Source of the DNA: Prostheceraeus crozeri
Lineage: Eukaryota; Platyhelminthes; Polycladida; Euryleptidae
Length of the DNA: 64,000 nucleotides
Reading direction: 5' to 3'
Assembly (NCBI GenBank): GCA_907163375.1
Contig: CAJQUW010003043.1
Location: 1-64,000, forward strand
The translations under genes and the position numbers were made by a program. Below the pieces are notes generated by a model, which did not search any database, was not told the DNA's origin, and worked only from the letters and a program-made list of their open reading frames with translations. Within the stretch, counting starts at the first letter, position 1. Every line of letters starts with the position of its first letter. Positions 15,025 through 44,210 of this stretch are shown piece by piece.

Positions 15025-15871
15025 AGTTACTGTACAATAACCGGTATTTACCGATCGTAGGAGTGCTGGAGTGTCGGAGAAGTGTGTGTTCAAACTCAGA
15101 CTGGATTAGTAGAACACTCTTCCACCGGTCAGAGCACTGTACAAACTCATTTTCCATGTAGAACCAATTGATTTGTTCATGAATGGGCAGTATTCTTGTA
15201 GTTACTGTACAATAACCGGTATTTACCGGTCGTAGGAGTGCTGGAGTGTCGGAGAAGTGTGTGTTCAAACTCAGACTGGATTAGTAGAACACTCTTCCAC
15301 CGGTCAGAGCACTGTACAAACTCATTTTCCATGTAGCACCAATTGATTTGTTCATGAATGGGCAGTATTCTTGTAGTTACTGTACAATAACCGGTATTTA
15401 CCGATCGTAGGAGTGCTGGAGTGTCGGAGAAGTATGTGTTCAAACTCAGACTGGATTAGTAGAACACTCTTCCACCGGTTAGAGCACTGTACAAACTCAT
15501 TTTCCATGTAGCACCAAGAACTTTTCTGGAAAATCTTATCATTTTTTGAAAAAATCGGTTTTTGGCGGTTTTTTCCGGTTGTTCGTGTAAGGAAAGTGCT
15601 GGAAGTTGCTGTACAAACTCAGGTTTTTGCTCTTGTATCTAAATTTTTCCATCGGAATGCTGTGCAAACTCGCTAACCAGGTAGCACCAATACTTGCACC
15701 AATTTTTCGAATTTAAATTTGAATTTTGATGGTGAAGGAGTTCGAATTTTGGAAAAATTTTTGGCTGTACAAACTCTGCGTCATCAGTAGTACCTAAATA
15801 TGTGGTTTCTTATTCTGTACAGACTCTATTCAAAAAGCTGTTGTTGAAGTTGGTGCTAACTTCAACGACAT
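15025..15871 (-). repeat. Right terminal inverted repeat with three 175-bp tandem units
   Basis: The inverted counterpart of 8154-8848, with one more tandem unit. AGAGCACTGTACAAACTC occurs at 15131, 15306 and 15481, exactly 175 bp apart. Units differ by single bases, so the array expanded recently or is being homogenised. Confidence 0.85.
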
Positions 15872-18774: not shown

Positions 18775-19849
18775 GCTCGTCCAATTTTGGCCGATGTTTT
18801 TGCTTCAATTCTAGACAAGATCATCGATACATCAATGAATATAAGTGCCTGGGAGAAGCTGTTCACTTTTACATATAAATGCATATGTTCCCCGAAAAGA
18901 GGTGGCAAGAAACACAAGAAGTCTTTGACATCGTATGTAAAAGTACTGATTTATAATTTCAAGGAAGGTTCAGATGAACCTTGTTCAAATCAGTACAAGT
19001 CAATGAAGAATCGAAAGCAAGCTAAGTCTTCAAAAAGTCTTTCAGAATTTTCTCGTCTATCGGTCTTGGTGTATGAGAAGCCGTCTGATGGTGACCTTGG
19101 CTTAGAGGTGCAATTATAATTGCTTCCACAACCGATACCATGGCCCCTGACAACGATGTGACTTACACCGGTCTTCAAGAGAAACACCCAACAAGACCAG
19201 TTGACTATTGCAAACCACAGGAGCCCTCCCTAAGTAACATTCATCGTTCAATCTCCGTCGAAGAAGTAAAAACAGCAATACAATCTTTTCCAAACGGATC
19301 CGCAAGTGGGCCTGATGGTATAAGACCTCAATTGTTGAAAGAACTAACATTTCCAACAGTTGGTGAGAGTGGTCATCGCCTACTGAAAAGTCTTTGCGAT
19401 TTTGCGATAAAGATTTTGATATAGATGGGAAGACACCCTCTTCTGTAGCACCAGCATTTTTTGGTGCCAATTTGTTTGCTTTTTCCAAGAAGCTAGGTGG
19501 CATCCGCCCGATTGCTGTTGGCAACACGTTGCGCCGCCTTTGCGCTGAATTAGTCGCGCGATTGGTGTTCTCAAACAGAAAATCATATGGCAACATTCAA
19601 CTTGGTGTTGGGACTGAAAGGTGTGAAGCTGGTGCCCACGCGATTCTTAATTTCTTGAGGGATCGTGACGATAATGACGTTCTATTCAAAATTGATTTCA
19701 AGAATGCATTCAATTCTATTCGCAGGGACAGAATGTTAAACATTATACACACTAGATATTCCGACATCTACAATTACACTTGGTCGGCGTATAATCAAGC
19801 AAGTTGCCTTGCTTACAATGCTCGGATTATCTTATCCCAGGAAGGCGCT
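18775..19849 (+). pseudogene. Non-LTR retrotransposon RT, 5' part, interrupted by the Polinton
   Basis: In order: ADVFASILDKIIDT (about 18787), GSASGPDGIRPQLLKEL (about 19300), LGGIRPIAVGNTLRRL (about 19493) and IDFKNAFNSIRRDRML, the RT palm with its first aspartate (about 19690). The pieces lie in three frames, so several indels preceded or followed the Polinton insertion. The reading ends exactly at the 6-bp target duplication, where Glu-Gly-Ala continues as Gln-Gln-Gly-Asp-Pro at 41371. The family has a C-terminal endonuclease-like domain (see 41365-42862). Confidence 0.8.
19844..19849. repeat. Target-site duplication, left copy (GGCGCT)
   Basis: Identical to 41365-41370. Removing the Polinton and one copy restores continuous RT coding across the site. 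Confidence 0.95.
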
Positions 19850-21147: not shown

Positions 21148-21710
21148 GTAAGCGACGGTCGTCGCTCTGAGCTCCCGATATCGGGTGTTTCAAAGGACTC
21201 TATCTTTTGAAGTAGGCAGGCTATCTTCTTACTTCAAAGTTTGTATGATAGAGTTTGATAGTGTCTTTACTACTGATAAAATTTTTTAAAAGTAGTATGA
21301 GTAGTAAAATGCGGAATTTTTTAAAAATTCTTAATTTTCATTTTTTTCAAAGTTTTAACATATAGACTAAGGTTTTCAAGTATCCTGAGTTCAAATATGC
21401 TATCAGATTTGAAATTTGACTAAGTCTAAGGCAGCTTTGAGGGGTTAGATCCCAGCTACTGATCACTACCTTTGACTCGGCGTTCCTGTTACCACTTCGG
21501 GGCAGTGACAATGATGTCTTCAGCTGTAAAGAGCGGGTATCGGGGAAGATCTCTCACTTCCCTAGTGATCAGTACAAGGCCTTCGGGCTGTCGACGGGAT
21601 CGAGTGCCACTCACTACACTCAAATCTATCATTCCTGACTAAGTGTAATACTTTAGGAATATGACTGTACTACATGATTCCAAACTTATACAAATTTCAT
21701 TATCTTACAG
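21148..21710 (+). other. Leader intron of the coiled-coil gene
   Basis: The donor GAG/GTAAGC at 21148 and the acceptor TTATCTTACAG ending at 21710 frame a 563-bp intron in the 5' untranslated region. The initiator ATG follows 18 bp into the next exon. The intron contains a GC-richer block with strong self-complementarity (21458-21573). Confidence 0.6.
21458..21615 (+). ncRNA. Possible structured RNA inside the leader intron
   Basis: ACTGATCACTA (21458-21468) pairs perfectly with TAGTGATCAGT (21563-21573). Inside is a GGGAAG/CTTCCC hairpin (21543-21562), and just outside is a GGCC-TTCG-GGCT tetraloop hairpin (about 21578-21589). The block is GC-richer than the flanking AT-rich intron and has no open frame. 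I do not recognise a family. Confidence 0.35.
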
Positions 21711-21727
21711 TTAACAATAAATCAGGC

Positions 21728-22894
21728 ATGGAAAACGATAAGAATCGTAAATATCACATCAAAATGTGCGCATGTGGGCGAATTAATCGCAGTGCGGACG
21801 CCAAGGCGCATGTGAAGAAGGCGGGCACCGGCCACATGATTATCTTGAATAGGGTTGCGTGTGTGAAGTGCAGAGTGCTGAAGGGTGGTGAGGATGAGGC
21901 GCGTTTTTACAGAGTGCATGCTGACTGTAGTGGTGGTTTAGTGACTGATTTGAGATTTACGCAGTTGATTGTGGAAGAGAGGGAGCGAATGTTGGCGATC
22001 GAGCGAGAGGGTAAGGCTAAGAATGTTGTTGAGAATGATGAGTTGGCGAGAGCGGTTGCGTCGTTGGAGGGTGAGATTGAGCGAAAGAGAGTGCTTGAGA
22101 GTGATGATGAGGATGATGTGGATTTAGATAGGGAGCGTGTGAGGAAGCGTGTGAGGAAGTTGAGCTCTTCGTCGTCGGAGGTGTCAAACATTGTCATCAC
22201 CGACCCCCCGAAGAGCTCATCTTCCCCAAAAGTGAAGAGTGGTGGGATTCGTGTGCAGTCGGCGAGGTGGTTGAAGGATGAAGAGAAGAGGCATGTTTCG
22301 CAGCAGATGGCGCATGATTTGTTGGTTAATAAGTATGAGAGTTTGAAGAAAGTGAAGGATGAAGTTGTGAAGGAGTTGGATGAGTTGAAAAAGAAGAAAC
22401 TGAAGTCGAAGGAGGTAGCGGATGAAAATATTAGAATGAGGTGTAGTGTGACTGATTTGAAGAATAAGACGCGAGAGTTGGAAGAGAAGAATGATGAGTG
22501 TGAGAAGAGGGCGAGTGCTGCGGAGAGAAGAATGAGAGATGCAGAAGCGAAGTTTGAGGAGATGATGAAGGAGATGAGTGTGTTGAGAGCGAGGAATGTT
22601 GAGTTGGAGAGGACTTTGCCTCGGCGGGGTGATGAGAGGCAGGCGTATGAGAAGTTGGAGCGCATGAGGGATGAGTGGGAACGTGTGAATGAGGATCGTT
22701 TGTTTGAGTTTCACATCCCTATTCGGGATAATCATTTGGCCGGCGAAGTATTAGTAAATCAAAGCCTCGACGAAAGTATAATATGCTATAACGGCCATCC
22801 AACGAAAAAATGTTTGCATGCCAGCCTACGAATGCGCGGTCACTTGCACAAATTCCCGATTCGGAAGCGCGCGAGACTGCCAAAGGATGGCTAA
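21728..22894 (+). CDS. Cys-rich N-terminus plus long coiled-coil protein, unknown function
   Basis: I start at the ATG at 21728, 18 bp after the splice acceptor. Residues upstream in the same frame are intronic. The N-terminal ~65 residues carry CAC, CVKC and a later Cys with His residues, a likely zinc-binding fold. From about residue 90 the protein is highly charged, with an acidic/Ser patch (SDDEDDVDLD, then RKLSSSSS), then ~130 residues of predicted coiled coil rich in Glu, Lys and Leu. Third codon positions are G-rich in the coil, unlike its neighbours. The frame ends 4 bp before a GTAAGT donor (22899; acceptor at 22959), and codon use changes after about 22712. The last ~60 codons may therefore be frame-shifted or replaced by splicing. 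Not recognised. Confidence 0.55.
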   Translation: MENDKNRKYHIKMCACGRINRSADAKAHVKKAGTGHMIILNRVACVKCRVLKGGEDEARFYRVHADCSGGLVTDLRFTQLIVEERERMLAIEREGKAKNVVENDELARAVASLEGEIERKRVLESDDEDDVDLDRERVRKRVRKLSSSSSEVSNIVITDPPKSSSSPKVKSGGIRVQSARWLKDEEKRHVSQQMAHDLLVNKYESLKKVKDEVVKELDELKKKKLKSKEVADENIRMRCSVTDLKNKTRELEEKNDECEKRASAAERRMRDAEAKFEEMMKEMSVLRARNVELERTLPRRGDERQAYEKLERMRDEWERVNEDRLFEFHIPIRDNHLAGEVLVNQSLDESIICYNGHPTKKCLHASLRMRGHLHKFPIRKRARLPKDG

Positions 22895-24609: not shown

Positions 24610-27600
24610 ATGGTAAGTTGAAAATTTCTTCACTCATCTCCCTCAAACGTGTGGCTAATAGCATCTTCCTCAATTTCAGGCATCAACTTCATCACCAACA
24701 CCCTCCCTTCTCGAGGAAAGTTTAGAGTTGTTGAGTCAAGGTAGGTTGTAACAATACACTGAGACTTGAACAGAGATGAAAGAATGATTTCTCTTTCAGG
24801 TGATGTGAGTTCCAGCTCAGGACTCTCGCGACAAGGCGACGAGTGGGAATGTTTCGACTGCGGACATATGTTTACAAGGAAGCACAGTCTCCTTCGACAC
24901 ATCAAACAACGTGTGTGTCAACGCAAAGCGGCGTCAATCTCCGGAGGTGAAGTTGATTCTGACGATGATATCTCCTTTCCTTGCGATTTGTGCCCTCTTT
25001 CTTTTGATAGTCACTTTCAGCGATCTTCGCACAGACTTCAACACACGCATGCAAATGATCACTACACCAACGGTACCTCTACCATCTCCCTCATTAATGT
25101 TTCACGTAATAATTTAGTACGCGACTACTGCATGGAGTCCAATACTCAAATAGTAGATTTTCCTGAGTGGCTCCTTCAAAATTCAAACATTATCGAAGCG
25201 CTCTTCAACAATTTAGACAATTTTAGAATGAAGGCGCTCATCTACCTTAAACTAAAATATATTAAGATAGATTTTCAAACGGGTCAAGTGACGGAGAGAA
25301 TACAGTTTCATGTTCCTTCCTCTTCCGCAACCGAAGTTGTAGACTGCGAGTCTTGGCTAAATTTTCACATTCAATGTTTAAAATCAAATGTAGATAAATT
25401 CAATCAACGCGACAGCGCTCTCATTTTTGATGGTGTGGACTCAGCCATATTCAAAATTTCACTATTAGAAAGTCATGCAGCTCGAGGTACATTTAAACTA
25501 CCAAAAACGTTGTATAATAAGAAAGCTGTCATCAATGTCGATTGTAAATCACAGTGTTTCAAATATGCAGTCCTATCCATCCTTCACTATAATGATATCA
25601 ACGCGCATCGAGATCGCACCTATAGCTATAGACAGTGGGAGGATGAACTAGACTTTGAAGGTTGTGATAGTGACAACATGAAAATCAAAGATGTAGAAAC
25701 GTTCGAAAAACATAATCAGATTAAAATTGTCGTTCACGTGTGGGAGAAGGGGTTGAAGGGTGCCCGCTATAATTCACGTTCAACTTGTTATGAACGTGTA
25801 GTCAACCTCTTATTAGTAAAACAAGATGATAGCGAGGAATGGCACTACTGTGGTATTCCCAAAATCTCTCGCTTGTACACTCACTTGGGGCACTCTAAAA
25901 GAGGTGAACATTTTGTATGCGACCGCTGCATCCGCTCCTTTTGGAGTAAAGATAAATTTGAAACTCACTATGAATGGTGCAAGCCAGGTAAATTACAAAT
26001 GGAACGCATGCCCAAAGATAAAATATTTTCACATAGGGATAATGGTGACGAATTAAGTCCCCTGCGTGTCATTTACGCAGACATAGAATGCTACATTGAT
26101 GATATCATCCACAAGCCAGCAGCCATATCCTGCTATGAAGTATGGCATGACCACTTTAGGAATAGACAAAACAAAATGCATACTTGGCAAGGTGAAGATT
26201 GCATTTCAAAATTTCTAGCATTTCTCGATAAAGCTGCTAAATTTCAACAATCATATGATTCCCAATTGCAGCGTAAGTCACTACATATGTCAGATGAAGA
26301 CAAACAAAAATTTGAAAGTTGCACATCCTGTCCTAAATGTCATAAAACGTTTGATGACGATAAAATTAAGAAAGTGCGTGATCATGATCACATCACTGGT
26401 AAATTTAGAAACGCACTCTGCTCCAAATGTAACTTTTCACTTAGGTTGAGACGTCGTGTACTACCCGTCATTTTTCATAACTTTAAGGGCTATGACAGTC
26501 ATATGCTCATAAAAGGAGGGTTGAGCCAGATGAAATCGTGGCAGTTTAATGTAATAGCACAAACGAGAGAAAAATTCATGGCAATGACAGCAAAAGTACC
26601 AGTAGATAAAACTAAAGAAAATAAGACAGTCTTCTTCGAAATAAAATTTTTAGATTCATTTCAATTCATGTCAGCGTCACTAGCTTCTCTCGTTCGAAAT
26701 CTCAAGTTTCTTCCCCATAGTCAAACTTTGAAGAAACACTATCCAAACTTAACGGATGAAATAATCACTCGCAAAGGAGTCTTTCCTTATGCGTATTTTA
26801 TCTCAATGTCTAACTAAATGAAACAACCCTTCCTTCCATTGACAAATTCAAAAACGATTTGACGGGTGAAGATTGTCCAGTAGAGGACTATGAACATGCT
26901 CAAGAGGCATGGTTAAAATTTGAATGTAAAACGTTTGGCGATTATATGATCGCTTACTTAGAATTAGATGCCATTTTGCTGGCTGATGTCTTTCAGGAAT
27001 TTCGACGAGTGGCATTAGAAGAAGACAAATTAGATCCTGTCCACTTTGTCAGTCTACCAGCCATGTCCTTTAAATCAGCCTTTAAAATGACTGGTGAGAC
27101 CATTCATCTCTTACAAGACCCGGAGATGTATAATATATTTGAGCGCGGAATACGCGGTGGTCTCACATTTGTAAATAAACATCATATAAAATCTGAAACA
27201 GTAGGTGATGATCATATCCACCTAAAGTACTATGACCAAAATAATTTATATGGCAGTTCACTGTCTAAACCACTACCTCATTCCGAGTTTAGTTGGTTAA
27301 ATCAAGATGAGCTTGAGTATTACTCCAACCCTTCAAACATACTGAAGATTCCAGATGAAGGTGATTGGGGATATTATTTTGAAGTGGATTTGATTTATCC
27401 AAATAGCATTAAAAATAAAACTGCTGATTTCCCACTCGCACCTGAATCTGGTGAAGTGACTGAAGATATGTTTTCACCATTCATGTCACAATTTCATAAT
27501 AACTTAACAGAGTGTGGACAGCCAAGGTACAAACCATGCCGCAAACTTTTACTCACCCAATATGATAAGAAAAATTATCTCGTACACTTCTGCATACTAA

Positions 27601-28583
27601 AATTCTATTTAGAAATGGGCATGCTTCTAAAGTCAGTTCACCGCATTATCAAATTTAGACAGAAAGCCTTCCTCAAACCCTATATAGATAGTAACAGTCA
27701 AAAACGTGCACTCGCCCAAAATAATTTTGAAAAGGATTTTTATAAATATAAGAATAACAGTCTTTTCGGAAAGACCATGGAGGATGTTAGAAAACGTATG
27801 AACTACAAACTAGTCGTTGATGAACAAAAATATCACAAATTGACCTCATCACCTCTTTTCATTGATAGAGACATCATCGATGAGGATCTTGTAGGTGTTA
27901 AAATGATAAAATCAGAAGTTGAGTTGTGCAAGCCCATCTATATTGGGCAAGCCGTTTTAGATTATTCCAAGCTTGAAATGTATCAACTCTTCTATAAAAT
28001 ATTAAAACCATGCCCTCTCGTAAAAGAGGTTCGCTTGCTGGGTGGTGATACAGATAGTTTCTTTTTAGGAATTACCACTCAAAAAGATTTAAATTTTAAT
28101 GAAGTAGGCAAGTCATTAGAAAAATATTTCGACACATCTAACTACAATCCCACTCATCCACTCTATTCCATACAGAATAAAGCCAAACTTGGTTGTTTTA
28201 AGGATGAAACAGCAGGAAAGGAAATAGGTGAAATGATTCTCCTCCGTCCTAAAATGTATTCCATGAAATTAAAAGAATGTGCAGATAGTATTAAGCGTGG
28301 TAAAGGTATATCAAAATCCATTGTTCATAAAATGAAACATCGCTCCTATAAGAAGGCCTATAAAAATAAAAATATAACGTTTGTCAATATGACAATCTTA
28401 AAATCTCAAGTTCATACTGTGAAAACGTACACGTTCAAGAAACGAGCACTTTCAGCATGGGAGGATAAGAGGTGTTGGATAGGACATAACACATCTCTTC
28501 CACATGGACATCCTGACACAAACATACCACCACTCAAAAGAATAATACTCACGCTACCACATTCAGGAGATGTATTGACATAA
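24610..28583 (+). pseudogene. POLB: Protein-primed family B DNA polymerase with two short introns; frameshifted
   Basis: This enzyme replicates Polinton DNA. Exon 1 is the ATG (24610-24612), intron 1 is 24613-24679, exon 2 is 24680-24740, intron 2 is 24741-24799, and exon 3 starts at 24800; all are GT-AG. Two C2H2-like fingers lie near 24850 and 24980. Exo I (YADIECY) is near 26075. A Cys/His endonuclease VII-like block (CPKCHKTF ... RDHDHITG) is near 26330-26435, and Exo II (HNFKGYDSHML) is near 26478. Polymerase motifs are A (YDQNNLYGSSL, about 27230), B (KNNSLFGKT, about 27755) and C (GGDTDS, about 28042). The first frame stops at 26815-26817. The continuation is open in another frame from at least 26813, so a one-base indel near 26808-26813 breaks it. 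Otherwise it is full length. Confidence 0.9.
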
Positions 28584-30283: not shown

Positions 30284-30322
30284 ATTATTCACATTGGAAA
30301 AATATATTAGCATACGTTTGCA

Positions 30323-31720
30323 TTAACTCTTCATTCGGAAATGGAGTGTGATACTTGTCACAGCATCTTTATGAAAAGGAATCAACGCACCAGCATCGTC
30401 ATAAATGGCAATATCAATTTGTGGGATGTAGTTTGATTTCAGCTTTGTATAATGCACTTTCTTGAAAGTATGCTCAGATAAAATACTGCAGCTTTTTGGC
30501 TGGTATGGTATCATTGCTAGCAATGGAGCTTCAACAACTCCCACACGTACATCTTCACCAATATTGGAATATATCTGAAAATAGTTAATACGACGCGATA
30601 GCGACATGTCTGCGCTAGCTTTGGTTACAGTACCACTTTTAAAGATATTTTGGTCAAAACCCAAAATGTCCATTAGAGTTTTATCCATAATTAGTTCAAT
30701 ACCTTTTCCACTTATAGTGAGAGACAAAGTACCTTCTTTTTCAGAAAATGAAATATGTTGCTCATTAATCACTTCATTTAAATAATCTACAACCAATTTA
30801 ACCGGAGTAATAATGCGAGGCATCAACACTCTTGTTTCATGTAAGATACCACCAAAAGGCTCTACACACTTTCTGTATAAAGATACGCTCCATTCTGTAT
30901 CAAATTGATTTGACCTTTCACATGGTAAATGTTGCATATCAGATTTTCCATGAACAGCTGCAGAACGATGTCGTAAGAACTGATGAAAATCTTTTGAACA
31001 AACTAATACTAGATCATCATCATTTAATTTGCTTATTGCAATATGATTAGATGATTTAATATAAGTCAATGTTGCCACTTGTTTGCCATCAACTCGAAGG
31101 AGATAATTAAATTTCTTCAATAATGTTTCAGGAGTCATGTTTGTCTTTCTTGGCTTAATCACAATCTTCTTCACCAACGTCTTCTCATTTCTTGGAATAA
31201 GATCTACATAATAAGCTTCCTCTCGATATATTAACTGTTTATGACCATTTATGTGGTAATTAACGTTAAAATTATCATAGCTTGTTAAGGCGCTAGCGAG
31301 GTAACCTAAATCATTTCTTAAACTTGGACTTAAACCAACAATCCAATCTTTCTCAACTACATGATGTACATAATTATAATCATCATTGTGCGGAGTAAAT
31401 TGGACAATATGTTTACTCGCTTTATTCAAGAAATCATATATAAACTTTTTACATGATAAGAGATCTTTCTTTGGCCACTGTGGAATGTATACTCGGCACC
31501 CCTTTTCACATTGATAAGCAGCTGTACGCCTCATATTAATAGTCATCACCTCATGATCAAAAGTATAGACACAGTTGCTATAAACAAGTTGAGTGACACC
31601 CACTTCCCAATTTCCATTTAGCTGTTGTGCATGATCAATGGGAGTAGAAAAGAGTGCGGCTCGATTACTAGCAAATCTCTTTGTAGCCACATTGCTAAGC
31701 AAAATATGATAAAACGACAT
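30323..31720 (-). CDS. Conserved Polinton protein, ~465 aa, paralogue of the previous gene
   Basis: The ATG at 31720 (MSFYHILLSNVATKRF) fits better than the longer frame starting on a non-ATG codon at 31741. Shared features with the gene at 28763-30283 are the N-terminal NWEVGV block and similar length, plus related blocks such as LMPRIITPVKLVVDYLNEV here and IMPRLYHTVESFIHIV there. Tandem duplication followed by strong divergence is likely. It is head-to-head with the PC4-like gene at 31756, leaving only 35 bp between the two ATGs, so promoters must lie inside coding sequence or far away. Confidence 0.65.
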   Translation of the reverse strand: MSFYHILLSNVATKRFASNRAALFSTPIDHAQQLNGNWEVGVTQLVYSNCVYTFDHEVMTINMRRTAAYQCEKGCRVYIPQWPKKDLLSCKKFIYDFLNKASKHIVQFTPHNDDYNYVHHVVEKDWIVGLSPSLRNDLGYLASALTSYDNFNVNYHINGHKQLIYREEAYYVDLIPRNEKTLVKKIVIKPRKTNMTPETLLKKFNYLLRVDGKQVATLTYIKSSNHIAISKLNDDDLVLVCSKDFHQFLRHRSAAVHGKSDMQHLPCERSNQFDTEWSVSLYRKCVEPFGGILHETRVLMPRIITPVKLVVDYLNEVINEQHISFSEKEGTLSLTISGKGIELIMDKTLMDILGFDQNIFKSGTVTKASADMSLSRRINYFQIYSNIGEDVRVGVVEAPLLAMIPYQPKSCSILSEHTFKKVHYTKLKSNYIPQIDIAIYDDAGALIPFHKDAVTSITLHFRMKS

Positions 31721-31755
31721 TTTTATATTGCTGATCTGCAACTTTGCATAACATC

Positions 31756-32112
31756 ATGAAGACTTGGATTTTGGACTCTCTACAATATATCAGAGTTGAT
31801 CGTGATGGAAACGTACATTTCAAAAATTCTCATGGTCATACATCAAGAGGAATTTCATTAACATGGCGACAATTTGTCAACCTCAATGATATCATGACGG
31901 ATTTGGAATATTTTGAAACATTAAGATTCATCTCCTTGGATGATCAAGTTTGGCTTCAACATTACAGAAATGAAATTCAAATCTACCATTCTCATTCCGC
32001 AAACTGTTTCTCATTTCGCAAATACAATTGGGAGAAGTATAGAAGATATATACATCGCTCCATCATGACATTTATTCGTCATGAGTTCATCGCCCTACTA
32101 TGCAAATCTTAA
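31756..32112 (+). CDS. PC4/SUB1-like putative transcription coactivator, first copy
   Basis: 118 residues from the ATG at 31756; the frame opens 12 bp earlier on a non-ATG codon. DRDGNVHFKN, then RGISLTWRQFVNLNDIM, follows the PC4 pattern of a beta strand, a KGISL-type turn and a helix (x-L-x-x-x-Q-W/F-x-x-L). PC4 proteins bind single-stranded DNA and aid RNA polymerase II initiation. A second conserved half, WLQHYRNEIQIYH then FSFRKYNWEKYRRYIHRSI, is unique to this family. Assignment is from pattern recognition and is not certain. It is followed after 22 bp by a paralogue and then by the TBP-like gene. Confidence 0.5.
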   Translation: MKTWILDSLQYIRVDRDGNVHFKNSHGHTSRGISLTWRQFVNLNDIMTDLEYFETLRFISLDDQVWLQHYRNEIQIYHSHSANCFSFRKYNWEKYRRYIHRSIMTFIRHEFIALLCKS

Positions 32113-32134: not shown

Positions 32135-32785
32135 ATGAGTTGGAAATTAGATTCCCTACAACGTATTGAAACGGATCATGATCGAAACGTCTATTTCAAA
32201 GATTCAACTGGAAATGTGAGAAGAGAGTTTGCTTTATCTTATCGTCATTTTCAATCTCTACATCATATCATGAAGGACTTGAAATACTTCTATATGAAAA
32301 GACATTCACGTATTGGAAATCGCATCTGGCTGCGCGTCAACAATCGGCGAATTCAACTCTATCATTCCCAACTTCATACTAACTTCACATTTCATCAAGG
32401 TAGTTGGGAAAAGTATAAAAGGAAGGTACATCGCTCAATTTACTCATTCTTTCATCATGAAGCGCCATCGCTACACCATCGTCAACATTCTCCGTCGCTT
32501 CAGACTCTACACCAAAATCGATCTCACAACATTACACCAACACCTTCCAAACAGCAAGTATTACCCGGGCCGACCTCAAATGTTAGTGGTGAAGATGAAC
32601 AATTCACGGAATCTTCAACTCTTCCCAAATGGGACTGTACAGATTCTCGGCGCCCTTTCTCATTCATCGGCGCAGTCAATGCGCTTAGAGGTACAGAGAC
32701 TACTACGTCGGATATGGAAGAGGGAGAGGTGTGTGATGTCGAATCTGACTGTGGACAATATGGTGATCTCTACTCAATTGAGTGA
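32135..32785 (+). CDS. PC4/SUB1-like putative transcription coactivator, second copy with acidic tail
   Basis: Residues 1-108 parallel the preceding gene: LDSLQRIETDHDRNVYFKDS, then REFALSYRHFQSLHHIM, then GSWEKYKRKVHRSIYSF. After this the frame stays open for another ~108 codons with a Ser/Pro/His-rich stretch and an acidic end (SDMEEGEVCDVESD). That tail lies over the TBP-like gene in a different frame. It may be a real dual-coding tail, an activation-type region, or the result of a lost stop, since the first copy ends soon after the conserved part. Confidence 0.5.
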   Translation: MSWKLDSLQRIETDHDRNVYFKDSTGNVRREFALSYRHFQSLHHIMKDLKYFYMKRHSRIGNRIWLRVNNRRIQLYHSQLHTNFTFHQGSWEKYKRKVHRSIYSFFHHEAPSLHHRQHSPSLQTLHQNRSHNITPTPSKQQVLPGPTSNVSGEDEQFTESSTLPKWDCTDSRRPFSFIGAVNALRGTETTTSDMEEGEVCDVESDCGQYGDLYSIE

Positions 32786-33002
32786 CAGTCTATCATTTTT
32801 GAAGATTCGTACCAGCAGTTACAATTTGTGTTATGAACCCGAACTTTTTCCTGCAGCTCTCATTAGTTGTTGGTTACCTGTGCATGTGGCAATCTTTCAT
32901 AATAGTAAAGTGATCATTACTGGACTAAAATCTCATGTACAAGCAAATGTGATCCTATACTATCTCATTGAGTATGTACGTACCCAGCGGATTGTAAAAT
33001 AA
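32457..33002 (+). CDS. TATA-binding-protein (TBP)-like protein
   Basis: 181 residues from the ATG at 32457, the length of the TBP core; the frame is open from 32313, but that part overlaps the PC4-like domain. Repeat 1 (about residues 7-85) has KIDLTTLHQHLPNSKYYPGR, then FPNGTVQILGALS. Repeat 2 (about 98-175) has NMVIST, the exact heptapeptide YEPELFP (126-132), and IFHNSKVIITGLKS. These match the two saddle halves of eukaryotic TBP. Of the four DNA-kinking phenylalanines, three positions are Phe (56, 131, 147) and the repeat 1 position after Y-x-P-x-R is Pro (40). TBP binds TATA DNA to nucleate transcription; here it may recognise the element's own promoters (inference). There is no intron, and AATAAA overlaps the stop. 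Confidence 0.85.
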   Translation: MKRHRYTIVNILRRFRLYTKIDLTTLHQHLPNSKYYPGRPQMLVVKMNNSRNLQLFPNGTVQILGALSHSSAQSMRLEVQRLLRRIWKRERCVMSNLTVDNMVISTQLSDSLSFLKIRTSSYNLCYEPELFPAALISCWLPVHVAIFHNSKVIITGLKSHVQANVILYYLIEYVRTQRIVK

Positions 33003-33028: not shown

Positions 33029-33477
33029 TTATTTCAAATCATGATAGAACTTACAAATCATTTTTTCATTAGAGGATGGATTACATGAAAAGTTTTGAAT
33101 AATAGATGCAAATCGAGATACATGTAAACGTTTTAAGATGAAGCACCACACGTTGATGAAAGTGGATGTTGTAGTATGCGTTCATTTCGCTGATATTGAC
33201 GCGTATGTTTTCTCAACCACTGCTGTGTTTGTATATTTGGAGGTTGAGCAAGAGAGTCAAATAGTTCACCACGTCGGTCTTCTCCAATAAAGATCGCTTT
33301 CCAATGCTCACCGCCTAAATTCTGCGAATGAGTGTTTAGCACAATAAAGATGGGATAGTGATTTACTGCAGGTGGTAAGGTATCGAGTGAATAGACATTA
33401 TCGAAAGCTTTCAACGTCGCTTCGTCTGCATTACGCTGCACTTTAGTCTTAATATCGTCAGCAGTCAACCAACTCAT
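33029..33477 (-). pseudogene. PRO: Adenovirus-type cysteine protease, frameshifted just after the catalytic Cys
   Basis: This protease matures virion proteins in adenoviruses and is standard in Polintons. Visible are GGEHWKAIFI (catalytic His), ELFDSLAQPP (acidic residue) and STCG (catalytic Cys). The frame stops at 33133-33135 only four residues past that Cys-Gly. A different frame on the same strand stays open from there to TAA at 33029-33031, ending inside an AATAAA signal, and has the composition of the missing C-terminal helix. A small indel near 33137-33142 is the likely cause. The start ATG shares one base with the capsid gene stop (TAATG at 33475-33479). Confidence 0.8.
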
Positions 33478-34754
33478 TAACGATTATACTGAAGAATCAC
33501 GTCACGATACTTTGTAATTTCAATGTTTGAATCGAAGACTGCATAAATTAATACATTGATCGTCTCAGGTAGTGTTCTTTTGAACGTCAAATCCAAACGA
33601 ATATTATGAGGCACGTTCGCTTGACGATAGGGTGCACTAATATCGCTGTCAGCAGTCAAATCAAATGCATAAATAGTATATCCACTCTTAAACTCTTTCA
33701 TAGTCAGTCCGTTGGTGTCATCCGTATTGTAAAAGCCAAAGACATCCATAAAATCAACATAACTGCGCATAAATTGATCCGCAGCAAAATCTGGTTTGTA
33801 GGGTGGACCAGGATGACTCACACCATTTACACGTAAAGCAATTTCACTTAACTGATTGTGTTTAAAATTGAAAGGATTCTTCTTTATATTACCATTAAAT
33901 GCGTCATTTTCAACCATTGCCACCATGAGGAGCTTCGGTGCTTCCGATGGAAAGAGGCCATCTTTCATGAAACTCTTTTGATCTTTCGGAATTGTAAAGG
34001 TGAGAAGCTTTGTATGCTGAACGGGGTAAATGGCATTTTGACGGTTAAGACCTTCAGCATGTCCTCTAATGACACTTGGATTCGGTACTACTCGACGAAT
34101 GTAAAGTGCAATATCTTCCACATGAATTCTAAAATTGTCAACTTTAGCAAATGCATTCAGCGCAAATTCAGGCTTATTCAATGTCAGCTTGAGTCGCATG
34201 CTGGTATTACAGAGTAAAAACTTTGACTGTCTAAAGAAGTCTAAATTCAGCGGACCATATAGCTGACATACTCTACTATCTTTAATCATAGCAGATCGCT
34301 TTACAAAGCCACTGTTTGTTTCAACATCAAATTTTCCTGCTTCATCTCTGTACCATCCCATGGCTTCCATATGACTTTTTTGTGCTGCTGGATGAAACTG
34401 TGATACATGATTGAAATATGATTTATAGGGATAATCGCTTTGACCACCTTCCACCTGCTGCTCTCCAATCGTTAGAGAAACATCGCGAAGTAATGTAGTC
34501 AATGGTAAATTGTTCAGTCCAACTTTATGTGTATCGTCAATAGCAGTTCCATCTGCTTGCTGAATTCTAAACCTCAAATCAACCATCGCATAACTCAAAT
34601 CTATGTAGTCATCACTACCACCAGGAATAACAAATTCAATGGGGCCAGCATTCTCAGCTGTTCGAGGATGATAATCTACAATACTTGAACTAAGAATATC
34701 TGTCTGTATGGCTTGTTGATCGAACAAACAAAAACCGGAAGTTTTACACTCCAT
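33477..34754 (-). CDS. Major capsid protein, double-jelly-roll type
   Basis: 425 residues, fully open. Recognisable blocks include ENAGPIEFVIPGGSDDYIDL, DVSLTIGEQQVEGGQSDYPYKSYF, QLYGPLNLDFFRQSKFLL and YTIYAFDLTADSDISAPY. These match the Polinton hexon-like major capsid protein, often found in invertebrate annotations as an F54H12.2-like protein. Double-jelly-roll capsomers would form icosahedral shells. Its ATG is 2 bp after the stop of the upstream basic protein and its stop shares a base with the protease ATG, so three virion genes form one tight block. Confidence 0.85.
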   Translation of the reverse strand: MECKTSGFCLFDQQAIQTDILSSSIVDYHPRTAENAGPIEFVIPGGSDDYIDLSYAMVDLRFRIQQADGTAIDDTHKVGLNNLPLTTLLRDVSLTIGEQQVEGGQSDYPYKSYFNHVSQFHPAAQKSHMEAMGWYRDEAGKFDVETNSGFVKRSAMIKDSRVCQLYGPLNLDFFRQSKFLLCNTSMRLKLTLNKPEFALNAFAKVDNFRIHVEDIALYIRRVVPNPSVIRGHAEGLNRQNAIYPVQHTKLLTFTIPKDQKSFMKDGLFPSEAPKLLMVAMVENDAFNGNIKKNPFNFKHNQLSEIALRVNGVSHPGPPYKPDFAADQFMRSYVDFMDVFGFYNTDDTNGLTMKEFKSGYTIYAFDLTADSDISAPYRQANVPHNIRLDLTFKRTLPETINVLIYAVFDSNIEITKYRDVILQYNR

Positions 34755-35212: not shown

Positions 35213-35253
35213 AGCTCAAATCCTAAACATTGTTAGTTACAACTTTGCATGAA

Positions 35254-36474
35254 TCACTGTCGATCACTTAGATGAAAGATGTCAGCACGACGCATCCAAG
35301 AGTTCATACTTGAAGGATAACCAGTCCATTTAACAAGACACCATTCTTCACCTTGCCGTTTTTTACATCGAATGATTTTCTCTACCAAATATGTTTCACT
35401 TTCAGTGACTACCTCAATCTCATCGCGGTAAAAGCTACCCTCAATTTCTTCATTATCGTAATCTTTCAACTTGTAGGTGGTCGGAGAGTCTTTTTGATTA
35501 ATCCTTGATACTGTAAATACCTCCTCTGTCCAATTCGGAAGGTACCCTTTAGCAAAAACACTTTTCACTTTTGAGATACGAACTTTATCGCCAATTTTCA
35601 CATCACTTTTCACATGAGTGCGTTTACGTTATAATGATTCGCGCACTTTATCTACATTGTCAGCATTTACATCTACTGGTCTGAGTCCAATAGAACGATG
35701 GATAGAGTGATTGTAGGCATGGAGTGTATCTTGTAGAACCTTTGTCCAATTTTGTGTCAAGTTGGCAGTAAAATATCGCCACAAGCGATTTTTTAATGTG
35801 CGATTAAAACGTTCAACGAGTGCAGCTTTATAAGCACTCTTTACACTAAACAACTCAATGTCATGCCTCTCAAATAATCTTGTCACATGCTGATTTTCAA
35901 ACTCTTTTCCTTGATCACTCTGAATTCTTTTTGGAATGCGACCTTCTCGAAAAATTGTTTGGAATGCTTTTGCTACTCCTTTCCCTTCTTTAGTTTTTAA
36001 AGGTTGAGCCCACGCATAACGCGAGAAAATATCAATGACGGTTGAAATAAAATTATTGCCCGAGTTATGTTTTGAAATGGAGGCAACATCACACAAATCT
36101 GCTTGCCACTGTTCATCGATGTCATGAACAATATAATGGCGGGTGCGGTACTTCTTTTTCGCTTGTTTGTGGAGTGTATAGGTAGCCTGACCCTTTAACC
36201 ATCGTTTCACTTGTGATTGTGGAAGACCACTCGCTTTTGATAATTTCTTGATAGATGCAAATCCTGCCGGATGTTTTACATCATAATAGATTGACTTCAA
36301 ACGTTCAGTCGATGACGACTGACTCTTTTTTCTCCTTCTCATCCTTTTGTTTTCTTGCCTTTCTACATTTACAACAACTGCAGCATTTAGCTTTAGCGGT
36401 TTTGCAATCGTGTTCACATTGCTTAGGGGTTTCATTGTGAGAGCTGGCGCAGCAAGTGCAAGTGACAACGACAT
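35254..36474 (-). pseudogene. INT: Retroviral-like integrase with chromodomain; one in-frame stop
   Basis: DDE integrase that inserts Polintons. The core has ADLCD (first Asp, about 36090), QSDQGKEF (second Asp, about 35920) and ALVERFNRTLK (Glu, about 35815). An SH3-like part follows, then a chromodomain (YLVEKIIRCKKRQGEEWCLVKWTGYPSS) near the C-terminus. The frame runs unbroken except for TAA at 35629-35631, located between the catalytic core and the SH3-like part. Both halves are in the same frame, so a single nonsense change explains it. The first ~60 codons overlap a Cys-rich frame; the true start may be one of several Met codons there. Confidence 0.85.
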
Positions 36475-36521: not shown

Positions 36522-37214
36522 TTAATAGTCTGAGAACATGTATTTCCTAGGAGGAGCTGTTTTACGTTTTCCTTTTACTAGTTTTAGTGATGATGTAGAT
36601 CTACGTCGAGTTCTTCCTCTTGTTTGCTTAGTGAGTGTGGGAGGGGATGTAGCAGGTGACGTCTTAAACCAATTTGTTGGCATTTTCATCGTCTGAAGCA
36701 TTGGAGCAGTAGCCACTGTTGAATCAAGTTCTTTCAATGTCTCATTATTCAAAGCAAATTTTGGTACATTATGCTTTTTCAATAGTTTAAGAAAGTATGA
36801 CCAACCAGGTGGAACATAGCCCTGACGGCGCTTTCTACGTGTCGCATACTGAATCAAGTCTTCATAACGTGAAGCATCAATCACTTTATTTTCATCTGTA
36901 ATGATTTCTCCTCTATCATTTACATTGAGATGGGGTTCAATACTGTTGAAAAGAGATATGGCATGTGCGCGAGATGCTAAAGGTGTAGCAGTCGATACAG
37001 AGTCACGCATCTTATTCTTCAAGTTTTTCAATTGCTCAACAGTTTCCGATTGTAATAATACAGCACGATGTGGATCTTTGATGTGAACATTTTGCTGATA
37101 ATCTATTTCTTTCCTATACATTTGATTTGCAAGAGGTTGCTTTACTTGCTGCATGGCAGTCAATTGTACATATTCATCCTGAGGAATAACAATCATGCGA
37201 GAATAAGAACTCAT
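36522..37214 (-). CDS. Conserved Polinton protein, 230 aa, unknown function
   Basis: Starts MSSYSRMIVIPQDEYVQL with an ATG overlapping the ATPase stop (ATGA, 37211-37214). The N-terminal half is helical and contains KEIDYQQNVHIKDP. The C-terminal third is Pro/Thr/Lys/Arg-rich and ends near an RKYMFSDY tail. I recall related proteins next to the packaging ATPase in other animal Polintons; a virion role is inferred. The copy at 76-510 is truncated. Confidence 0.6.
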   Translation of the reverse strand: MSSYSRMIVIPQDEYVQLTAMQQVKQPLANQMYRKEIDYQQNVHIKDPHRAVLLQSETVEQLKNLKNKMRDSVSTATPLASRAHAISLFNSIEPHLNVNDRGEIITDENKVIDASRYEDLIQYATRRKRRQGYVPPGWSYFLKLLKKHNVPKFALNNETLKELDSTVATAPMLQTMKMPTNWFKTSPATSPPTLTKQTRGRTRRRSTSSLKLVKGKRKTAPPRKYMFSDY

Positions 37215-37828
37215 AGTTTGTAGATAATCATGGGAGTTTTCAAAATATCACTTCGAAATCTAAATTCTTCCGGACACTCTTGCGTAAAGTCAATGAATAA
37301 GTAACCGTATGGTTTTTCAGTAGCTGCTTGAAAAATTTCAATTAAGGCTTTTGATCCTTTGGGTGCAACTTGTCGCGCTAAAATTTCAAATTGACTTTTA
37401 TCTCGCGGATTCTTGAAAATAGCATAATAGTGTGTATTCAGGTTTCGTGTACGAGCTTCTTTTCCATCAGGAAACAAATTTTGTGTGATATAGATGATAA
37501 AACACCTTTTATGATGTGCTGCACGAGTGAACATATCTGTAACATCTTTTGAATTCTTACTTTCTTTTAATAAATCATCCAATACAACAACATCATTAGA
37601 CTGAAGTTTATCCACTGGAATAATTCCTTCATGTCGAATAAAGTTGCGGCTTTGCAATTCCTGAAACAACGACGGTTGATAAATACCATAACACCAAATC
37701 ACTCGATTGATAGGTTCCTTAAACAACTCCCTTCTTTTATCCAATAAATTCAGCGTGAAAACAGTTTTACCTGCATGAGATGGACCTGATACAGTCAGAA
37801 CTTTATCACATTGAAGTCTGAAATCCAT
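37211..37828 (-). CDS. ATP: FtsK/HerA-type genome-packaging ATPase (copy B)
   Basis: Starting at the ATG at 37828 (MDFRLQCDKVLTVSG) gives 205 residues; the upstream extension to 37876 has no ATG. The P-loop GPSHAGKT begins about residue 16, and Walker B DVVVLDDL follows. A Q in a YITQN strand fits the family's sensor position. The C-terminus KTPMIIYKL ends on the TGA that overlaps the next ATG. All motifs are intact and the frame is undamaged. Confidence 0.9.
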   Translation of the reverse strand: MDFRLQCDKVLTVSGPSHAGKTVFTLNLLDKRRELFKEPINRVIWCYGIYQPSLFQELQSRNFIRHEGIIPVDKLQSNDVVVLDDLLKESKNSKDVTDMFTRAAHHKRCFIIYITQNLFPDGKEARTRNLNTHYYAIFKNPRDKSQFEILARQVAPKGSKALIEIFQAATEKPYGYLFIDFTQECPEEFRFRSDILKTPMIIYKL

Positions 37829-37859
37829 TTTATTACTTTGAGACTCAACATTTGCATAA

Positions 37860-38216: not shown

Positions 38217-38267
38217 TTTCCGTGTTAGTCTTCGCTAAAACCTATCTTTACCACATTTGCATAGGTA

Positions 38268-38591
38268 CTAACTATTGCGACATAAGTGACACTCGAAATG
38301 AGCAATGTCACAGTGGTTACATTTGCAAAGTTGAATGCAATTACGTATGAAACAGCGTTGACAAAAAGCATGCTTACATCTCTTGAAGATGCGCTTTTCA
38401 TTTCCATCCTTTCGCTTACATACATCACAACACATAGTTTCACCGTTACTGATGTCTATAGCAAGTCCTTTTGAAGATATGAATTTGCTAGCCTTTTCTA
38501 AATAATAGACACATGTACAGAAGGAATATACTTCGAGAGTGAGCAGACATAGCTCGAAAACCAGTTGTGCTACAATCAAGTACCACTGCAT
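38268..38591 (-). CDS. Membrane-anchored RING-like zinc-finger protein (copy B)
   Basis: 107 residues with an N-terminal hydrophobic segment (WYLIVAQLVFELCLL) and a C-terminal RING-like cluster: CCDVC, CKHAFCQRC, CKCNHC, CHLC. The start ATG is 2 bp past the stop of the upstream gene. If it is an E3 ligase, its substrate could be a host restriction factor, but nothing in the sequence shows this. Confidence 0.6.
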   Translation of the reverse strand: MQWYLIVAQLVFELCLLTLEVYSFCTCVYYLEKASKFISSKGLAIDISNGETMCCDVCKRKDGNEKRIFKRCKHAFCQRCFIRNCIQLCKCNHCDIAHFECHLCRNS

Positions 38592-38593
38592 TT

Positions 38594-39004
38594 TCAATTT
38601 TTCTTTATGGAAAGTTGAATGTGAATATCTGAAATCGCTTCAATCACTAGACTGCTACCATGATGGTTAAATGCGTTAAGACGTTCAGCAATTTTTATCA
38701 TATGTCTTTTAAAAAATTCTTGGGGGTGATCTACCACTTCCATTGAATAAGAAGCAAAATGGAAAGAGCGACTTTCCACCTCTTCCTTTCCAAAATGACT
38801 AAACTTAATTTTCGCAACTAATCGCGCCATGACAATGCTATCAGAGAATGTATTCATTAACTCTAGAAATAGAGTGCTAGCATCATCGACCACTGCTTCG
38901 ATGTCGGTCTCATCTTTATGAAAATTTATCACATAATCTTGAACAGCTCCTTTTAAACTTTGCCTATGAAAATGTAATGTTCCGCAGTCGTTTGAGAAAG
39001 ACAT
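38594..39004 (-). CDS. Conserved Polinton protein, ~136 aa (copy B)
   Basis: Uses the ATG at 39004 (MSFSNDCG); the frame opens 6 bp earlier on GTG. Contains DHPQEFFKRHMIKI and NHHGSSLVIEAI near the C-terminus. A short upstream frame (39007-39279) ends 2 bp before this ATG but is mostly a shadow of the exonuclease. Function unassigned. Confidence 0.55.
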   Translation of the reverse strand: MSFSNDCGTLHFHRQSLKGAVQDYVINFHKDETDIEAVVDDASTLFLELMNTFSDSIVMARLVAKIKFSHFGKEEVESRSFHFASYSMEVVDHPQEFFKRHMIKIAERLNAFNHHGSSLVIEAISDIHIQLSIKKN

Positions 39005-41364: not shown

Positions 41365-42862
41365 GGCGCTCAACAAGGAGATCCCGAAGGACCAGCTCTT
41401 TTTAGTGATCTGATTAATGAAATGATCCATCAACTATCCAGTCCACTCAATTTTTGGTACTTAGATGATGGTAATATCGGTGGTCCTATTGATGCAGTGG
41501 CATCTGACTTCCTTTATATTATAAAAACAGCAAGTGATCGAAATCGAAATCGACTCGAAATCTATTCTGCGAAATGTGAACTGGTTTTCCTTGGTAACCC
41601 TGATCATAGTTAACAAGAAAAAAGACATTTCATCTCTCTTTAACTCCATCTACCCTGGAATAAAGTTTACCTCGAAGAATGATCTATGTATTTTGGGAGC
41701 TCCTATTGGACATTCTGCTATCATCACATGCCTAACATCTAAGATTGAGACTCTAAAAATTTTTGCAGGAAGACTGGAGCATCAAGACGCACATGATGCT
41801 CTTTTCCTACTAAAGAATTCGTTTTCTATTCCAAGATTAACATACTTTTTGCGCACTGCACCTTGTTATAAAGAGCCTCAACTTCTTCAGAAGTACGATC
41901 AGATAATTTATGAATCATTGGAATCGCTGCTGAACATCAATCTCAGCGAAGATGCCAGGACTCAAGTGAATCTTCCGGCACGGATTGGTGGTCTCGGAAT
42001 TTACTTTGCCCAAACGCTCGCACTTTCTGCTTTTTTAGCCTCTGCGGCCGGTAGCCTTTCCTTGACTGTCAAACTTTTGAATGAAAATTCAAGCTTCCAG
42101 GATGTTGAAGTTACAAACGCCACTGTTCAGTGAAAAGCAATCACTGATGAGAACTTGCCTTCAAATAAGACCAGTCAGCGAGAATGGATGAACCCATTTC
42201 ACTTACGAGCACTATCCTCACTGTTGCCTTCTGCCAACCAACGTTCGAAGGCGCGTTTGACATCCCTTCAAAGCAGCACTGCCGGTACATGGCTATCCGC
42301 TTTCCCGATTTCTGGTTTCGGCACGAAGTTGACTGATGACCAGCTCCGGATAAACTTAGCCTTACGACTAGGATGCAAAATTGTGGAACCTCATGTATGC
42401 GTCTGTGGAGTGGAAGTTTCTGGAGATGGTCATCATGGACTTCCGTGTCAAAGAAGTGCGGGTCGACTCCCTCGACATGCCATGCTCAACGAAACAATCC
42501 AACGCGCTTTAAAGTCAATTAACATTCCTGCCATCTTTGAGCCAACGGGCCTAACAAGATCTGATGGTAAGCGCGTTAATGGAATGTCATTGACTCATTG
42601 GTCACATGGCCGAATACTTAGCACAGTTGCGGATTCCTTAGCACCCAGCCATCTTCATTTAAGTGCTAATTGTTTAGGGCGTGTCGCAGAAGAAGCGGAA
42701 AAGAAACGTAGTAAATATGAGACTTTTCTGCGACAAGGATATCAATTCACGCCCATAGCTTTTGAAACTCTTGGTGCTCCTGGGCCTGCAACGCTCGAGT
42801 TCTTGAAGGAGCTTGGAGCCAGAATCACAACAGCAACTTCGGACACTAGGTCGTTCTCCTAA
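41365..42862 (+). pseudogene. Non-LTR retrotransposon RT, 3' part, with C-terminal zinc and endonuclease-like region
   Basis: Continues the RT from 19849 across the target site. GDPEGPALFSDL and FWYLDDGNIGG (YLDD catalytic motif, about 41456) follow, then KCELVFLG. After a frameshift near 41595 comes ARIGGLGIYFAQTLALSAFL. An in-frame TGA lies at 42131-42133. The last part has CVCG ... GHHGLPC (CCHC-type cluster), then EPTGLTRSDGKRVNG and SHLHLSA. From memory of the family, this region normally reads R-P-D-G and W-D-x-T, as in a PD-(D/E)XK-type nuclease. Here Asp is Asn and WD is lost, so the nuclease looks dead. Confidence 0.75.
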
Positions 42863-43251: not shown

Positions 43252-43840
43252 TTGTATGAATTGAAGCTCAGCATTTTCATGAAGTCGTGTATAATGACAT
43301 TGAAATTGTCAATTTCAGTCCGGTCTATATTAGCGAAATCAGACATTACTTTTAGCGCCTTATCTAAAGGCACGCTAGTACACAGGTACAAGAAAATCAA
43401 AAATAGCAAAACTTTTCTGAATGACAACAATCTTACTTTTGTAACCACAGACAAAACCAATAGATTATGCGTTACTAAAAATGAACACATTGTAGATAGA
43501 ACGGAAAGAATCTTGCGGGATGAAACAACATATAAACCTATTGAGAAAAGCAATCATAAAGCTTTAGAAAAGCAAGTCAATAAAATTGTTAACATTGTAT
43601 TTAAAGATAAATTATCGAAGTCGGAGCGTGAACCACGCTCTGAAAAATAGAGACTCAGTAAATAAGCATGAACATTGCGTTGTTTGCCATAAACTTCCAG
43701 AAAAATGTAACTGTGATATCTCCTGTGTCGTATATCAATTTACCTGCAAGATATGTATTTCCAAATGCATAGGAAAAACAACACGCTCTTTTTTTATAAC
43801 AGATATAATGAACATAAAACAGCATCAAGAACAAAAATAA
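43252..43840 (+). pseudogene. Penelope-like element with internal deletion
   Basis: Codes for NDNNLTFVTTDKTNRLCV and RDETTYKPIEKSN, the N-terminal block of Penelope-like RTs. Shortly afterwards, in another frame, it continues HCVVCHKLPEKCNCD and CKICISKCIGKTTRSF, the Cys linker and GIY-YIG start. The RT palm that should lie between is absent, and the last part of the GIY-YIG domain ends early. Bases 43655-44190 match 7500-8060 in inverse orientation. Confidence 0.65.
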
Positions 43841-44210
43841 TATCAGCGCGTTGTCAGAGCACAATAAAATTTGCGGTATGAATAATGCGTACAATAGATG
43901 ATTTTACCATTGATTTGCTGAGGTGTTTGCGTGATCCTGTAGAAACAAGTTTGGTGGAATCTCGTTTCATTGATTTTCATAAACCTTCATTGAACAGACG
44001 TCACGAGACATCTGGAGGTTCAACAATTCACATATCGCAGCATCTGATTTTATAGTCAACTGCCTTGAGAAAGGGTCAAATGAAAAAAAATGAAACGTTG
44101 GCAACGTTGTATCTACTTTATGTAATTTGTATTGTGGCATAAATACTTCGGGAGAGAATACTTTGGTCTTTGAAAATTTCTTGGTTGTGGTCCTCCCGCC
44201 CACTGCCATT

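Follow-up and report, generated by a model that had tools for sequence, protein, structure and literature searches.

A Polinton-type element of Prostheceraeus crozeri encodes a member of a divergent, conserved family of TATA-binding proteins

A Polinton-type element of the polyclad flatworm Prostheceraeus crozeri encodes a TATA-binding protein (TBP)-family saddle, and this saddle is a member of a divergent and conserved protein family. The element lies within a 64,000-nucleotide stretch of contig DNA, referred to here at its full length as the window, and carriage of the gene by a Polinton is seen directly for the window copy only. The reading that we favour is that the element encodes its own long-established TBP, which probably serves as an initiation factor specific to the element. 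With a conserved TBP gene, Polintons would take an active part in their own transcription, and virus-like mobile elements of the Polinton type may direct their own gene expression. The family also amounts to a natural collection of tens of TBP variants with one repeat altered in the same manner, allowing direct tests of the two phenylalanine pairs, the TFIIA contact, and the box sequence, and the gene would serve as a marker for a group of Polintons.

The gene and the element that carries it

The TBP gene occupies positions 32457-33002 of the plus strand, where translation gives an unbroken frame of 181 residues followed by a stop, in agreement with the intronless frame of 181 codons described in a first-pass annotation of the sequence. 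The profile search and structure prediction that the annotation had proposed both identify the product as a TBP-family protein. It matches the Pfam TBP profile PF00352 in two stretches at E 1.4e-20, scoring 73.4 bits where the cut-off is 22.9, with TBP repeats at residues ~6-85 and ~97-176, and its predicted structure has the TBP fold with a pseudo-symmetric saddle. Both repeats and the motifs previously quoted from them are in place, namely KIDLTT at residues 20-25, N32..Y35.P37.R39, and YEPELFP at residues 126-132. Alignment with the human TBP core, a reference identical to the PDB human TBP sequence over 181/181 residues, likewise confirms that three of the four intercalating phenylalanines are present (F56, F131, and F147) and that a proline, P40, takes the fourth position. 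None of the NCBIfam TATA-box-binding protein models (subfamily and equivalog) reached its curated cut-off with the product; ten match at E <= 1, the best at 5.6e-18 and 65 bits against a cut-off of 181. The product is a TBP-superfamily protein and not a canonical TBP, a class denied to it because only three of the four intercalating phenylalanines are kept, F197 (human numbering) being replaced by proline.

The carrier had been described as a terminally intact Polinton, and the description holds for its ends. The element (19850-41364) has inverted ends that read 5'-AGTAGTAAGT and is bounded by the target-site duplication GGCGCT on the left (19844-19849) and on the right (41365-41370); inverted ends opening with 5'-AG and a 6-bp target duplication are those of Polinton/Maverick elements. 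The inverted ends match over ~415 nt at 91% (gapped), with extra repeated blocks at 96% and 98%, and removal of the element with one GGCGCT restores an empty site at which an open reverse-transcriptase frame spans the junction. The interior is less well preserved, the polymerase-like gene and the integrase both being broken in the window copy, whereas the TBP frame is intact. The reverse-transcriptase frame into which the element is inserted (19394-19849 joined to 41371 onward, plus strand) reads QEGAQQGDPEGPALF, then YLDD.

The integrase gene (35254-36474, minus strand) encodes the rve core of Polinton/Maverick integrases (PF00665, 2.5e-10) and a chromodomain (1.1e-07), though it contains one in-frame stop (TAA, 35629-35631). 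The polymerase-like gene (24610-28583, plus strand) has a GDTDS motif in frame, and its 5' end holds a candidate exon with the ATG and a candidate intron; it appears to be frame-broken between 26817 and 26859 because its two ORFs occupy different frames. From this motif we take it to be a candidate for the protein-primed DNA polymerase B of Polinton/Maverick elements; no polymerase match was found in Pfam, the PDB, or PHROGs. Its ORF at 24766-26817 (plus strand) weakly matches a C2H2 finger and, at residues ~498-557, includes an endonuclease VII-like domain (PF02945, 1.9e-06). The polymerase-like gene (24610-24679, plus strand) and a 204-aa ORF (40601-40537, minus strand) have a common 5' design, in which the ATG is directly followed by GTAAGT, then by 67 and 62 nt, respectively, to CAG, and then by GCATC (Met-Ala-Ser-Thr); after CAG, the sequence is in frame for the 204-aa ORF and out of the ORF frame for the polymerase-like gene. 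If both genes are spliced, nuclear expression would follow.

The packaging-ATPase-like gene (37211-37828, minus strand), a candidate for the FtsK/A32-like ATPase of Polinton/Maverick elements, matches Pox_A32 at E 0.025, below the cut-off, and a PHROG ATPase at 0.005. The major-capsid candidate (33477-34754, minus strand) has no Pfam match and is presumed to be such by analogy with Polinton annotation; a PHROG match to a late promoter transcriptional regulator (0.0047) spans 37 residues only and was taken as chance. The candidates for an adenain-like protease and for jelly-roll capsid proteins, assigned by position and by analogy, matched no protease or capsid profile, and an Adeno_PX match in the 118-aa ORF (8.9e-05) falls below its cut-off. 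Gene names are given from position, motif, or the usual Polinton gene content because the profiles are weak or absent. Two other ORFs were described by eye: a 109-aa ORF (38268-38597, minus strand) has a Cys-rich, RING-like C-terminal half and no significant Pfam match, and a 406-aa ORF near the left end (21674-22894, plus strand) is coiled-coil-rich and has long antisense ORFs over it. Outside the element, long inverted repeats at 99% (7575-8077 with 43629-44131, and 8154-8851 with 15174-15871) are possibly other mobile elements. Five of the ten flank ORFs scanned have a Pfam match at E <= 0.01, four of these to transposon-type domains and one to ALKBH8_N, with a score just at the cut-off. 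The window yielded neither RNA families at gathering score nor tRNAs.

Homologues and the two halves of the saddle

A search of ~5.8 billion proteins yielded 94 candidates, 61 of which are homologues of the element TBP at a threshold of E <= 1e-3 (best 5.1e-88), far more than chance would give. A precomputed TBP domain is present in all 61, which share 34-80% identity with the query across 70-100% of its length. The window protein and 53 of these homologues make up the 54-row alignment A1, from which P0005, P0011, P0037, P0046, P0047, P0053, P0055, and P0062 are absent; every aligned row matches PF00352 at E <= 0.001, and 18 columns are invariant.

Residues are numbered here after the 339-aa human TBP, and their contact roles (with bases; with TFIIB for E284, E286, and L287; with TFIIA for E191) are presumed from TBP structures. 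We likewise take repeat 2 to serve the first half of the box, on the TFIIB side. This repeat keeps F288 (53/54 rows) and F305 (54/54), N257, V259, and T313 (each in all 54), and the TFIIB-contact residues E284, E286, and, mostly, L287 (53, 54, and 48 rows, with all three in the window protein). Repeat 1 has been changed. F197 is proline in 53 of the 54 rows, so that the proline already remarked upon in the first-pass annotation is not a quirk of a single copy; V220 is glutamine throughout (54/54), T222 is leucine in 48 rows, and E191 is lysine in 42, the window protein among them. F214 is kept in all 54 rows, and N167 is present in all 47 that reach its position. At the position of L303, alanine (40/54), threonine (11/54), or serine (3/54) is found.

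F197P, V220Q, and T222L are common to an 11-row subclade and to the 43 other rows, and are therefore old and fixed rather than products of decay. The pairing of a conserved repeat 2 with a uniformly remade repeat 1 is read from the alignment as pointing to selection for a changed function, not decay, and the near-invariance of the DNA-contact residues of repeat 2 and of the three phenylalanines argues for real use of DNA. An intronless frame is also what would be expected of a recent retrocopy of host TBP or TRF caught by a single element. Such an event is scarcely credible against the ~21% identity between the product and human TBP in structural alignment, the 61 homologues with derived residues nearly fixed in the 53 that were aligned, and the long branch (3.78 changes per column, SH-aLRT 100) that separates the family from cellular TBPs in a quick tree. 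This tree held the family and four cellular TBPs, and is silent on origin beyond that separation; the retrocopy is ruled out as a recent event, though the gene may have an ancient origin in host TBP or TRF. The family profile has archaeal proteins as its two best PDB matches, and this, together with the long branch, indicates no special closeness to animal TBP.

Upstream genes, promoter words, and a proposed function

Two small ORFs and the TBP gene lie together on the plus strand amid minus-strand genes; this group has a divergent 472-aa ORF to its left and the convergent protease candidate to its right. Upstream ORF 1 (31756-32112, plus strand; 118 aa) and upstream ORF 2 (32135-32785, plus strand) are tandem paralogues with 42-43% identity, and the 3' part of the latter overlaps the TBP start in another frame. 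Six homologues of the pair were found (P0063-P0068), one of which, P0067, spans the end of ORF 1 into ORF 2. The longest contig is 1771 nt both for P0064, a homologue of the small ORFs, and for P0002, a TBP homologue, which suggests that the two may lie on one contig. In a predicted model of ORF 1 (pLDDT 78, 8 rows), four strands and a helix occur twice, and a PC4/PUR-like fold is suspected from it as a lead only. The PC4 likeness is good by eye, but a PC4 identity is not supported, the fold matches and the PC4 comparison not being significant (10, 65, 38, 33, 247, 509, 125, and 310 of 1000 shuffles scored equally high).

Within upstream ORF 2, TATAAAA (32414-32420, plus strand), 43 nt before the ATG, is a candidate TATA box for the TBP gene, and TCATTC (32444-32449, plus strand), at -13 to -8 from the ATG with its A at ATG-11, is a candidate initiator, the initiator consensus being TCAKTY. 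The first T of TATAAAA lies 32 nt upstream of the A in TCATTC. In the window, for which alone the codons were read, these two words encode I-K and His in the out-of-frame leader. Leaders are long enough for comparison in 13 of the 54 rows, including the window frame extended upstream, and in the same 10 of these 13, the Met is preceded by I-K at a distance of 14 codons (once 13) and by His at 4 (once 3); P0028, P0049, and P0056 lack the pattern. The recurring leader is also the out-of-frame tail of the upstream gene, and the TATA may therefore be kept for coding. These neighbours bear on whether the family could belong to the host, caught by or domesticated from Polintons and doing a host job, as might be supposed while the 61 homologues are known from protein sequence alone and the Polinton context from the window copy. 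A host family of this kind is very unlikely: the TBP gene belongs to a small group on the plus strand whose element neighbours are on the minus strand, the small upstream ORF seems to travel along with it (P0064 and P0002), and the out-of-frame leader recurs in nine further rows.

The first-pass annotation had proposed that the element brings its own initiation factor, perhaps tuned to its own TATA promoters. The first part of this proposal is supported as probable; the second is only partly favoured. In the 160 nt ahead of 18 gene starts, TATA-like words are not clearly commoner than in the whole element (TATAA, 1.39/kb against 1.12/kb; TATAAA, 0.35/kb against 0.40/kb), which leaves a plain TATA regulon unsupported, and the enriched upstream word is ATGCAAA. 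When 7-letter words were counted in the 60 nt upstream of the first ATG of each of the 18 gene ORFs, ATGCAAA was the most widely shared, occurring in sense before 6 of the 18 starts; within the same distance, the shorter ATGCAA precedes seven starts and TATGCAAA four. A 7-letter word, whichever it might be, was common to at least six members in 3 of 3000 sets of random positions and in 1 of 3000 sets of random ATGs, a control that covers 7-letter words in one element only, ATGCAAA having been noticed earlier in a looser 160-nt listing. In that listing, it is found for 5 of the 18 starts, and TATCATT is equally frequent.

The element contains ATGCAAA 10 times against 6.8 expected, an ordinary number, and it is therefore the place of the word, not its number, that is unusual. 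Once 16 starts had been adjusted by eye, six of the 10 copies were in the sense orientation ahead of a start, at -29 to -46. They precede upstream ORF 2 (32100-32106, plus strand; -35) and, on the minus strand, a 516-aa ORF (30317-30323; -40 from the second ATG, -10 from the first), the 472-aa ORF (31743-31749; -29 from the first ATG, at 31720), a 151-aa ORF (35244-35250; -38), the ATPase-like ORF (37851-37857; -29 from the first ATG, at 37828), and the 118-aa ORF (38256-38262; -46). The word is missing within 60 nt of 12 of the 18 starts, the major-capsid candidate included; for two of the 18, the polymerase-like gene and the 204-aa ORF, the candidate introns make it probable that the true start lies elsewhere. 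ATGCAAA resembles what we take to be the octamer of POU factors, and a host factor is therefore a fair alternative as its reader.

As an element-specific initiation factor, the role that we favour, the element TBP would serve the element's own promoters, and its bending of DNA may be altered. The TATA/initiator promoter of its gene would be readable by host TBP. The product would bind a non-canonical box, bend the DNA asymmetrically with one phenylalanine pair intact and one lost, and recruit host TFIIB and RNA polymerase II without the normal dependence on TFIIA, and a set of the element's own genes would be switched on by this recruitment. By analogy with the vTBP of beta/gamma-herpesviruses, the TBP gene would be an early gene that activates later ones. 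Such a switch would fit an early TATA/initiator promoter together with another word ahead of several genes of structural type; we attach rather little confidence to this hypothesis. Its fuller form is equally doubtful: a class of Polintons would pass from early to late expression in the host nucleus by a switch of its own, host TBP reading the TATA/initiator to give the element TBP, whose half-changed saddle would recognise TATGCAAA instead of TATAWAWR, with structural and packaging genes started by means of host TFIIB and Pol II. If this is true, a virus-like element would have a minimal system for switching promoters, and the half-changed saddle would be a natural experiment in TBP specificity change.

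The same residues could be viewed as those of a dominant-interfering TBP, one that engages host TFIIB or promoters and dampens or diverts host transcription. In favour are the changed repeat 1 beside retained TFIIB-contact residues, and the general argument that TFIIB could be titrated by an altered TBP whose contacts with it are intact. Interference of this sort is unlikely, given the near-invariance of the repeat 2 DNA-contact residues and the three phenylalanines, and given the placement of ATGCAAA and the TATA/initiator leader, which suggest promoters of the element's own.

Viral relatives and comparison with known systems

A structure search with the predicted TBP model returned 35 viral models at E <= 0.001, giant-virus TBPs among them, and also reached ranid herpesvirus 2 ORF75 (rank 16) and elephant herpesvirus U58 (rank 38, E 1.6e-03). 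TBP is, moreover, a common gene of mirusviruses according to two reports (PMC10132985, PMC12768974). The gene may on these grounds be shared with, or have been captured from, large DNA viruses of the giant-virus or mirusvirus type, the family being a branch of viral TBPs; this is possible, short of probable, the identity being <=20% in the best 50 of 461 structure-search rows. Such an ancestry concerns the origin of the gene and is compatible with its acting as an element-specific initiation factor. Scans by exact short patterns found no TBP relatives in viral contigs (with the element protein or the family alignment as query), genome contigs, or phage records, and no viral-contig relatives of the capsid candidate, the ATPase, the polymerase piece, or the small ORFs; a yeast TBP query and a YEPELFP DNA pattern found no viral TBP. 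Because these scans need exact short patterns, the absence of relatives from them is weak. PHROGs held no match for the element TBP.

Capsid genes were a later addition to the conserved Polinton set, which is not known to include a transcription factor. The conserved genes named in one account are those for a protein-primed polymerase, an integrase, an ATPase, a protease, and uncharacterised proteins (PMC4028283). Among the matches listed from the open-licence literature, none concerned a Polinton TBP by its title or the start of its abstract, and no relevant mention of TATA or TBP occurs in the text of PMC11071308, PMC7805220, PMC11071296, PMC4028283, PMC8547959, PMC10120064, PMC12220804, PMC4642659, or PMC8097293. 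In the passages of PMC10675990 that name TBPs, the carriers are algal elements of putative mirusvirus origin rather than Polintons. The presence of TBPs in giant viruses, mirusviruses, and herpesviruses is already known. What is new, provisionally because the literature negative rests on the open-licence matches listed, is the finding of a TBP of viral type in a kind of element new for such a gene, and a saddle that is distinct and nearly fixed.

With cellular TBPs (eukaryotic and archaeal; PF00352), the element TBP shares the two-repeat saddle, three of the four intercalating phenylalanines, both asparagines, the threonine of repeat 2, and the TFIIB stirrup YEPELFP. TRF2/TBPL1 is a TBP paralogue with altered phenylalanine positions and altered promoter choice; set beside the element TBP by description only, it differs in which of these positions are altered. 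Giant viruses and mirusviruses offer a parallel in that a DNA virus carries a TBP gene, but they are large, whereas the carrier here is a 21.5-kb element. The nearest published mechanism found, and one that could apply to the element TBP by analogy, is that of the herpesvirus vTBPs at TATT late promoters, as set out in PMC4893493. The same paper records binding of TATT at late promoters by BcRF1 of EBV and its relatives, and equal binding of TATA and TATT by BcRF1 in vitro, so that the choice of box by a TBP alone is not assured (PMC4893493). It also places these vTBPs within a six-protein complex (PMC4893493), of which no like partners were identified in the element. The element TBP resembles the vTBPs of beta/gamma-herpesviruses (BcRF1, ORF24, UL87, and U58) as a virus-encoded TBP-like protein, and differs in build, the herpesvirus U58 model having 1005 residues, whereas the element TBP is a bare core of 181 aa.
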